This document shows positions 57,901 through 63,052 of a stretch of DNA of 64,000 bases, in pieces. Each line of letters starts with the position of its first letter. Position 1 is the stretch's first letter. The notes below the pieces were generated by a model that worked only from the letters and a program-made list of their open reading frames with translations, did not search any database and was not told where the DNA came from. Source of the DNA: Liolophura sinensis (lineage: Eukaryota > Mollusca > Polyplacophora > Chitonida > Chitonidae); contig NC_088300.1 in the NCBI RefSeq assembly GCF_032854445.1, positions 64,578,984 to 64,642,983 on the forward strand, read 5' to 3'. Made by a program: the position numbers and the translations under genes.

Positions 57901-60900
57901 TTCGTGAGAGGCTCCTCAGTCATTGCGCTGCACTGGCATGCTAACCACCTTGTCCACAGAGAGGCCCCGGGAGAGATTTTAGTGCGAGGGAGTCAAATGA
58001 TGTGACCTGTTGAAACACACAAGAGATTGAGCACAAAACTGACAATGCTTACACAGCTAGGAAAAACTATTACTAGAGACAATTTTGTTCATTCACTGAT
58101 TCAGTCGTTCTCTCACCTTGATAGAAATCATGGGAAGTGGCTTACTGTTAATGTAGGTCTTCTTCAGGGCTTCTCTGGTGGGAGAGATTGACACAAATTA
58201 CAAGTGGCATGCCAGCTTACACGCAGGAGATGCGTAAAAAGTACCACATAATGTTTTCACCATCACCTATGTTTTTGTATACCTTATAAACTAAAATAAT
58301 ACAGGTATAATACTACACAGGTTGTAATACAACCATAGTACACCACTGCAGAGTAAAACATGTACAGATTTCACAATGTCAGACCACACATATTCTAACA
58401 TCATGAATGAAAGTCCCTAAAGTATAACGACATGCATATATAGATATATTTAATGTAGTACATAAATTATGATATTTTACACAAGAAATATTTCACTAAT
58501 GTGCCAGGTTTATATTTGAGCTGCTGAGAGGAGACTAGAGAAAGTCACAGCACCTCAAGGTCCTGGACAAACTCCACAACATAAAATTGCAGCTAAATTA
58601 AGAACTGGAATTGGCCACAAACTCTAGTTCAAAGGCTTTCGGCTAGTCCCATCACAGAAGAACCATTGGCAGGCCAGGGCACCATCTTGTTTAAAAATTT
58701 TTGTTTTTTCCTTTTTTTTGCATAACAGATTTTATTTTCTTTCTTAAAAACAATCGAAATTCTTTACAAGCAAAAATATTGATGACTCACTCTCCCAACA
58801 ACTCAATGGAGTCTGGGAATTTCTCCTGGAAAAACTGCAACAATTCATTTTCTGTCTGGATGGATTCAAAGATTTCAAACGGCATGAAAAGTGTGGTGGT
58901 AAAACTCTTATCCAGGTTAGGCAAAGCTATCATCATGAATTCGTTCCTGGGCCAGATGTGAAGGTAGTTCTTCTCCATGGCGAACTGAAAAAAATCATAA
59001 TGAGTAAATTTGATTTATAATGTGGCACAGTGTGGAAATACAGACACTTGTTTAACAACGCAAACTATGGATGTGAAGTACAATAATAAATGGCAAGACA
59101 TTCTTAACACCCTTCACTGACAATGTTACACCCAGGATGTATTATTATGTGTTTTATGTTGGCTTGCAAAACTATCTGATATTGTTGCTGTATTGATTAA
59201 ACTGTCAACCCCAAATGATGCCCCTTGCTGACACAAAAACTGAAACACCTATGGGGAAACTTTCGTTTATTTATTAACTTGGTTGTTGCAAAGTTAAGAG
59301 CAATTACCTGAAGATTTATTTTTATTTCAGTTTTCTTGAAATGCAGACTGTCTTACTGACCTCAGCACCTCACCTGGTAATGTGAGAGGGGGATATATGG
59401 GATCTTATATCACCTCACCTAGATATGTGTGGAGAGATACACAAGCTCTTACCATGGCTGATTATGTCAGAGAGGGATACACATGCTCTTATCTGCACTT
59501 CACCTGGTTAAGTGAGGAAGGGATACACACGCCCCTAGCTGGTTATATGAAGGAGGGATACACATGTTCTTATCATCGCACCTGGTTATATGAGGGAGGG
59601 ATACACATGCTCTTATCACATCACCTGGTTATATGAGGGAGGATACACATGCTCTTATCACTTCACCTGGTTATGTGAGGGAGGATACACATGCTCTTAT
59701 CACTTCACCTGGTTATGTGAGGGAGGATACACATGCTCTTATCACATCACCTGGTTATGTGAGGGAGGGATACACATGCTCTTATCACTTCACCTGGTTA
59801 TGTGAGGGAGGATACACATGCTCTTATCACATCACCTGGTTATGTGAGGGAGGGATACACATGCTCTTATCACCTCACCTGGTTATATGAGGGAGGATAC
59901 ACATGCTCTTATCACATCACCTGGTTATATGAGGGAGGATACACATGCTCTTATCACTTCACCTGGTAATGTGAGAAAGGGATACACACGCCCTTAGCTG
60001 GTTATATGAAGGAGGGATACACATGTTCTTATCATCGCACCCGGTTATGTCAGGGAGGGATCCACATGCTCTTATCACCTCACCTGGTTATATGAGGGAG
60101 GATCCACATGCTCTTATCACATCACTTGGTTATGTGAGGGAGGATACACATGCTCTTATCACTTCACCTGGTTATGTGAGGGAGGGATACACATGCTTTT
60201 ATCACATCACCTGGTTATGTGAGGGAGGATACACATGCTCTTATCACTTCACCTGGTTATATCAGGGAGGATACACATGCTCTTATCACATCACCTGGTT
60301 ATGTGAGGGAGGATACACATGCTCTTATCACTTCACCTGGTTATGTGAGGGAGGGATACACATGCTTTTATCACATCACCTGGTTATGTGAGGGAGGATA
60401 CACATGCTCTTATCACTTCACCTGGTTATGTGAGGGAGGGATACACATGCTTTATCACATCACCTGGTTATGTGAGGGAGGATACACATGCTTTTATCAC
60501 ATCACCTGGTTTTGTGAGGGAGGGATACACGTGCTTTTATCATCTCACCTCGTTATATGAAGGAGGGATATACATGCCCTTATCACCTCACCTGGTTACG
60601 TGACGGAGGGATACACATAATCTTATCACCTTACCTGGTTATGTGACGGAGGGATACACATAATCTTATCACCTTACCTGGTTATATGAGGGAGGGATAC
60701 ACATACCCTCATCACCATACCTGTTTATTTGAGGGAGGGATACACATGCTCTTATCATCTCACCTGGCTATGTGAGGGAGGGATACACGTGCTTTTATCA
60801 CTTCACCTGGTTATATGAGGGAGGAATATATACATGCCCTTATCACCAAACCTTGTTACATGACGGAGGGATACACATGATTTTATCACCTCACCTGGTT

Positions 60901-63052: not shown

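Follow-up and report, generated by a model that had tools for sequence, protein, structure and literature searches.

A probable mirage-type minisatellite at an exon end of the chiton KMO gene and comparable splice-donor arrays at other coding exons

In the KMO gene of Liolophura sinensis, the end of one coding exon and the splice donor that follows it are, as the alignments show, the source of a minisatellite in the adjoining intron. We consider it likely that this array is a minisatellite of the "mirage" type, which arose through duplication of the tail of exon C with its donor and persists as a near-neutral passenger with respect to splicing. The initial annotation treated the array as a peculiarity of KMO; however, the same process has struck other genes, with ten further homology-supported exon ends found among 26 arrays sampled from the matches listed in a genome search. 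The window, i.e., the whole stretch of 64,000 nucleotides that was analyzed, is C6:64578984-64642983 of the 609-Mb assembly.

Structure and origin of the KMO array

The features of the gene and its array are the following (window positions; the slash marks a splice junction or its copy):

53411..63055, minus strand: KMO gene, as far as nine exon matches (A–I) trace it in the window
61026..61191, minus strand: KMO exon C, from phmmer to KMO structures (E 4.5e-15) and the sequence
61020..61028, minus strand: true 5′ splice site CAG/GTGAGG, GT at 61025-61024, phase 0
58985..61025, minus strand: KMO intron C–D, 2041 nt, of which the array is 1665 nt (82%)
59361..61006, minus strand: array of 39 more tandem copies, unit TGTATCCCTCCCTCACATAACCAG/GTGAGGTGATAAGAGCATG, from TRF and wraparound alignment; copies 25, 36 and 38 without GT
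60276..60529, minus strand: copies 13–18, part of a homogenised inner block, 41–43 bp, with T or A and not G at +5
58791..58984, minus strand: KMO exon D, from tblastn (query human KMO) and the sequence, 3′ end set by eye

Exon C is identified as KMO by its phmmer match to PDB 5x68 (E 4.5e-15), in which the alignment "..YIPHGYMEL[C/T]IPP.." reaches the IPP that is copied in the repeat unit. Because these copied codons are conserved in KMO, the exon is the older sequence and the template, with the array as the copy, as the initial annotation had held. On the minus strand the exon ends in ..TGTATCCCGCCCTCACATGACCAG/GTGAGG, and the first repeat copy takes its exon half from the final 24 nt (61049-61026) of exon C; at the other end of the intron the acceptor of exon D reads TTTTTTTCAG/TTC.

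TRF finds the array as two rows (59539-61055 and 59366-61055), both of which extend into exon C, while the wraparound alignment resolves an exon copy (61049-61007) followed by 39 copies (61006-59361), mostly of 42–45 bp and of 35–46 bp overall. The unit comprises 24 nt of the exon tail without a gap (30 nt with a one-base gap) and 19 nt of the intron, which corrects an earlier division into 26 nt of exon and about 17 nt of intron. Aligning the unit with the exon end, as had been proposed by way of a check, shows the exon copy and the majority unit to agree at 39 of 43 positions (exon part 22/24, intron part 17/19), as against 25/43 for the best match elsewhere in the window; the score of exon tail to unit is 23, and the highest of 500 shuffles is 11. 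These values uphold the claim that the array was copied from the end of exon C along with its own donor. The alternative, that a generic intronic minisatellite resembles the exon end by chance, has in its favor the abundance of minisatellites and nothing further; we regard it as vanishingly improbable given a match that is in register with the junction, that no shuffle equals, and that recurs between exon and unit at other genes.

The copies have diverged to differing degrees. The peptide CIPPSHNQ, which the copied stretch was said to encode, is exact in the exon half of six of the 39 units, whereas 16 carry a gap there. Copies 2–3 resemble copies 5–6, and copies 24–25 resemble copies 35–36 (unit table, best-partner list), a higher-order structure which suggests that unequal exchange may have taken place in the past; unit identity by lag shows no clear period within the KMO array. 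A genome search with exon C and the array as the query gives at least 18 matches, all at the KMO locus, and TRF output holds no second array of this kind inside the KMO gene (53411..63055). A 138-codon open frame on the plus strand crosses the array (window 59975-60391) and is probably due to the repeat period.

We propose that a tandem duplication of the exon-C tail and the 5′ splice donor would have set another copy in register beside the first, towards the intron, and that slippage or unequal exchange would then have raised the number to about 40, with higher-order repeats among them. Whenever copies are gained or lost in register, one intact exon end and donor would be left. The array would be tolerated because its 5′-most, exon-proximal donor is the one chosen by exon definition, with the whole array being spliced out as intron.

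The window holds two more minisatellites, at 14286-15218 (119-bp units) and 15313-15954 (83-bp units), with 7.8 copies each, and, on the minus strand at 9092-9165, a marginal match to SNORD36 (30.8 bits, gathering score 30, E 0.66). Elsewhere in the assembly, contig C99 is mitochondrial DNA in the form of a head-to-tail concatemer with a period of about 15.5 kb and at least seven COX1 matches, and C632 has one such match. The order of the mitochondrial genes, all on one strand, is nad3-trnS-nad2-cox1-cox2-trnD-(atp8)-atp6, with cox1 recognized by PF00115, the others named by eye, atp8 placed from the gap, and three of five tRNA calls set aside as they lie in coding genes. This order fits the lophotrochozoan block nad3-nad2-cox1-cox2-atp8-atp6, as the ground pattern is described in PMC5162086, and speaks against amphioxus, which had been considered at first. 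A search for the GFP family yielded no match in the genome and none in the control genomes, and so carried no information on this point.

Donor and acceptor signals within the units

Donor motifs are widespread in the array: GT is kept in 36 of the 39 units and AG/GT in 34. The initial figure of about 39 decoy donors is nevertheless an overstatement, since +5G is kept in 16 of the 36 GT units and lost in 20, and most decoys are therefore weaker than the true donor. Six units have the exact true 9-mer CAGGTGAGG and equal it, and two have CAGGTAAGG. The latter CAG/GTAAGG sites had been pointed out before, with places that were one base off; they lie at 60672-60680 and 60629-60637. When scored with a human matrix, the true site reaches 11.3, the commonest weakened forms reach 7.2–7.5, and two units score higher than the true site.

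The in-frame codons past the true junction are GTG AGG TGA, i.e., VR-stop, as previously read. Any KMO decoy used as a plain donor yields this VR-stop, which probably leads to NMD. The claim that all decoys give the same truncated product is correct for such plain use, but it overlooked the 34 AG/GT units, for which use as an acceptor is possible.

One might ask whether the true donor faces competition for U1 from the donors in the array, with the copy number setting the level of truncated, NMD-prone KMO. The 36 GT units, with six identical to the true 9-mer and two of the form CAG/GTAAGG, and the shared VR-stop outcome would be suited to such a role. A comparable arrangement is the tandem repeat at an exon end of human IFI6, whose units act as alternative donors. 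The IFI6 (6-16) minisatellite with its multiple splice donors was reportedly described by Turri et al. in 1995. Its repeat unit is 12 nt. IFI6 thus differs from KMO in being one human gene with a much shorter unit and with decoy use seen, whereas KMO is read from the genome. Two of the downstream IFI6 repeats are reported to be used as donors (PMC4526556), and hence decoys can be used. Against regulation by decoys are the loss of +5G in 20 of the 36 GT units, the like anatomy at unrelated genes (e.g., POLR3A, OGDH and BMS1/TSR1), and the amphioxus mirages, by which splicing is reported to be undisturbed (PMC3087553). The pattern of conservation also speaks against it. The AGGT window is changed in five of 39 units, tying for the second to sixth lowest of 40 four-column windows, and ranks tenth of 40 by summed changes. 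The most variable column is +5 (22/39 units, gaps counted), mainly because two states, A and T, were amplified jointly and take turns along the homogenised inner block. As column variability over the 39 units reveals no clear excess conservation in the AGGT window, we make no claim of selection on the decoys; neither the tuning of KMO splicing by decoys nor selection against them, as initially suggested, is supported. Overall, we judge competition by array donors to be very unlikely.

Units might instead serve as acceptors. As 34 of them read AG/GT and most are acceptor-like, splicing first to a unit and then onward from it would still give a normal mRNA. Exon C could in this way be joined stepwise to the units with regeneration of the donor, i.e., recursive or dual-specific splicing. 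The combination of AG/GT with 3′ and 5′ splice-site motifs, which is a feature of dual-specific sites, is present in the KMO units (34/39 AG/GT), each AG/GT being placed behind a pyrimidine tract. By a human matrix, the unit consensus scores 8.4 as an acceptor, which ranks it among the best 2.4% of the 3496 AGs that the same strand of the window has outside the array and places it within the 3.3–10.4 of eight acceptors of the KMO gene. With matrices of the same kind, an acceptor score of at least 6, within the range of the KMO acceptors, is reached by 33 of the 40 sites when the exon copy is counted, and 32 of 40 reach at least 6, a threshold of our own choosing, as both donor and acceptor. 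A TGA is the third codon behind the unit's own GT, in the same phase, in 32 of the 34 AG/GT units, so a unit taken as an acceptor and then read through would stop too. AGGT sites that can serve as both donor and acceptor are reported to be used and to be enriched in human tandem-repeat introns, with UBC offering a tandem array of them (Duan et al. 2024, PMC10809524). UBC and KMO share tandem AGGT at the unit boundaries as potential donor or acceptor; however, the UBC monomers are coding and 228 nt long, while the KMO array is intronic, and translation that continued into it past the true junction would run into a stop. Recursive splicing is reported to occur in small and medium human introns as well (PMC10156609), but in flies nearly all recursive segments are said to exceed 1 kb (PMC6110457) and the KMO intron is 2 kb. 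Comparison with the further arrays described below cuts both ways: the median unit acceptor scores are high at GH31 (10.0), MOT1/BTAF1 (9.5) and L063 (7.0), but acceptor-likeness is not class-wide, the medians being 0.7 at BMS1/TSR1, -3.6 at POLR3A and 2.3 at ABCC. These scores, too, are based on human matrices. We regard recursive splicing as quite unlikely, if a little less so than competition for U1, and retain near-neutral persistence of a mirage-type array as the preferred reading.

Donor arrays elsewhere in the genome

We searched the genome for three donor 8- or 9-mers spaced 20–50 nt, where matches count copies and not arrays. CAGGTRAG gives 3351 matches versus 672 for the reversed motif, CAGGTAAGT gives 301 versus 158, and CAGGTGAGT gives 735 versus 30. 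The sample of 26 arrays was picked for CAGGTAAGT or CAGGTGAGT among the matches listed. For CAGGTAAGT, 12 of the 15 arrays among the matches listed were fetched, three near chromosome ends (one of them L043) being left out, and for CAGGTGAGT all 14 of the arrays among the matches listed were fetched. Each array start was placed by eye on the basis of TRF, and the frames of the exons compared with Pfam and PDB were selected only after inspection. Ten of the 26 arrays start at an exon 3′ end with homology at E <= 1e-3 in Pfam or PDB, which runs to the last whole codon or to within one residue of it:

L049: RPC1/POLR3A, E 2.7e-7
L051 (C1:26352200-26354200): GH31, E 5.4e-13
L056: MH2/SMAD, E 7.6e-11; unit shares only 5 exon nt, and the array starts at the donor
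L058: "helicase-like protein" in the table, which we take to be MOT1/BTAF1-like, E 1.8e-18
L062: fucosidase, E 5.4e-4, under the Pfam curated cut-off; unit shares only 3 exon nt, and the array starts at the donor
L063: Fe-hydrogenase-like, E 1.8e-12
L064: 2-oxoglutarate dehydrogenase (OGDH), E 3.5e-20
L067: ABCC, E 1.6e-15
L068: TSR1/BMS1, E 4.5e-11
L070: SPT3, E 3e-7

The exon tail is found inside the unit in eight of the ten and in L053, over 21 to 59 aligned nt and with none of 500 shuffles scoring as high. L053 has an open frame with no database match and is, like L055, L061 and L065, an array whose exon end is supported by an open frame only. L052 is weak, having a deoC similarity at E 0.006 and an exon-tail score that is equalled by one of 500 shuffles. 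For 11 of the 26 sampled arrays the exon at the array start is not recognized or is undecided, as in L057, where the array fills the fetched stretch. At the first donors of L039, L040, L041, L043 and L044 near the end of C1, we recognized no exon, judging by open frames only. The notion that every CAGGTRAG array is exon-derived was hence discarded, both for these five and for the 11 sampled arrays. The stretch C1:156000-1387800 (L039–L045) is packed with diverse minisatellites, some having CAGGTRAG units. By a rough extrapolation from the CAGGTGAGT matches listed, about 100 such arrays, exon-seeded or otherwise, might be present genome-wide.

Within the fetched stretches, AGGT[AGT] sites downstream outscore the exon-end donor in 11 of 16 cases at POLR3A, 13 of 14 at GH31 and 3 of 3 at ABCC. 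Among the other nine scored arrays, seven have no higher-scoring AGGT[AGT] site, with 4/8 and 3/11 such sites in L052 and L053. If POLR3A, GH31 and ABCC are functional, strength alone cannot choose the site there, and tolerance of the arrays must come from more than the weakness of decoys. The first units of the GH31 array (L051) are open in frame at 39 nt, i.e., 13 codons, so that splicing from the first decoy would add 13 residues and not truncate the protein.

For a control we took arrays of the reversed 9-mer, of which 10 of the 14 among the matches listed were fetched (20 flanks), two with donor-like sites in their units and two near the C6 end being left out. The control was examined in donor orientation and by Pfam, PDB searches being confined to the donor arrays. 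The array filled the stretch in three of the 20 flanks, and in three with no TRF array a point 60 nt from the end served as the edge. The 19 edge ORFs in the control flanks show no Pfam match at E <= 1e-3, the best being 0.03. With one automatic procedure applied to both sets, Pfam matches at the array edge number four of 26 for donor arrays versus none of 10 for the control (Fisher p 0.56), a procedure that misplaced the edge in five of the donor arrays (L052, L053, L062, L065 and L068). Since this difference is not significant, the case for exon-seeded arrays is built on the direct alignments of exon and unit and not on an excess over other minisatellites. A control-motif array at C9:14546132-14547237 has units that read CTGCAGGTAAG, donor-like again.

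On the acceptor side, acceptor-like arrays give 777 matches versus 198 for the reversed form. One of the eight fetched, L101 (C1:65033180-65034300), lies directly against an exon that weakly resembles tetraspanin (E 0.003, under the Pfam cut-off), and its repeats end in TTTTCAG; beside the other seven no exon was recognized. These excesses bear on the view that donors actively seed tandem duplications in this lineage, e.g., through co-transcriptional structures or breaks, instead of such duplications merely surviving better. It draws on the preponderance of donor 9-mers in arrays over the reversed motif, strongest for CAGGTGAGT (735 vs 30), and on the parallel excess of acceptor-like arrays. 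The matches, however, count copies rather than arrays and carry no correction for the abundance of the single-copy motif, and minisatellites of diverse kinds abound in the stretches near the C1 end. We rate donor seeding as a rather unlikely alternative to the better survival of donor arrays.

Relation to known systems and significance

The closest known counterparts of the KMO array are the amphioxus mirages, minisatellite-like tandem duplications across an exon–intron boundary described in Adh3, the globins BflGb6 and BflGb9, TnC and PGBD5 (PMC3087553, PMC3902484, both of which credit the name to Canestro et al. 2002). Regular splicing was judged by RT-PCR to be undisturbed by them, and they are reported to display copy-number polymorphism, also of somatic origin (PMC3087553, PMC3902484). 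Boundary-spanning repeats, many with AG/GT, are common to these mirages, as reported, and to the KMO array. A further likeness lies in amphioxus Adh3, with units given as 10–72 bp and array edges that escape homogenisation. The KMO array likewise has minisatellite size, with 39 copies mostly of 42–45 bp, and its unit spans the boundary (24–30 nt of exon and 19 nt of intron), the first copy being the exon end itself. At the level of sequence it has the features of a mirage, and its working at the RNA level would follow by analogy: neutrality in RNA and length instability are reports from amphioxus, while the KMO array is known from the sequence of a single assembly. The differences are its presence in a lophotrochozoan and not a cephalochordate, the 39 extra copies, and the ten more homology-supported genes among the 26 donor arrays. 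The kind of structure is thus known from amphioxus, and the new elements are the lineage, the scale and the recurrence within one genome. Among the leading matches in the open-access literature, we came upon neither a genome-wide survey of mirages nor a case from a mollusc or other lophotrochozoan.

The gain of introns has also been modelled as tandem duplication of AGGT (Rogers 1989, following the account in PMC4974935, which also deals with 24-bp exonic repeats in fission yeast). There, too, a duplicated exonic AGGT segment provides units bounded by GT and AG, but the AGGT in KMO is the donor of a pre-existing intron, and no intron is created.

More broadly, we see an even chance that minisatellites in this genome have arisen again and again at the donors of coding exons, affecting dozens to at least 100 genes, conserved housekeeping genes included, with donors of equal or greater strength behind the real one, and forming an independent, genome-wide counterpart of the amphioxus mirages. 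If so, splicing would pick the first donor by its position, or remove the array recursively, and not choose by strength. Tandem copies of a 5′ splice site that follow directly on the real one at several conserved genes, and in some of them outscore it, offer a natural experiment on first-donor choice by the spliceosome, and they carry over to a distant lineage what had been described for a few amphioxus genes. This bears on exon boundaries as general seeds of minisatellites and on the evolution of introns by tandem duplication.
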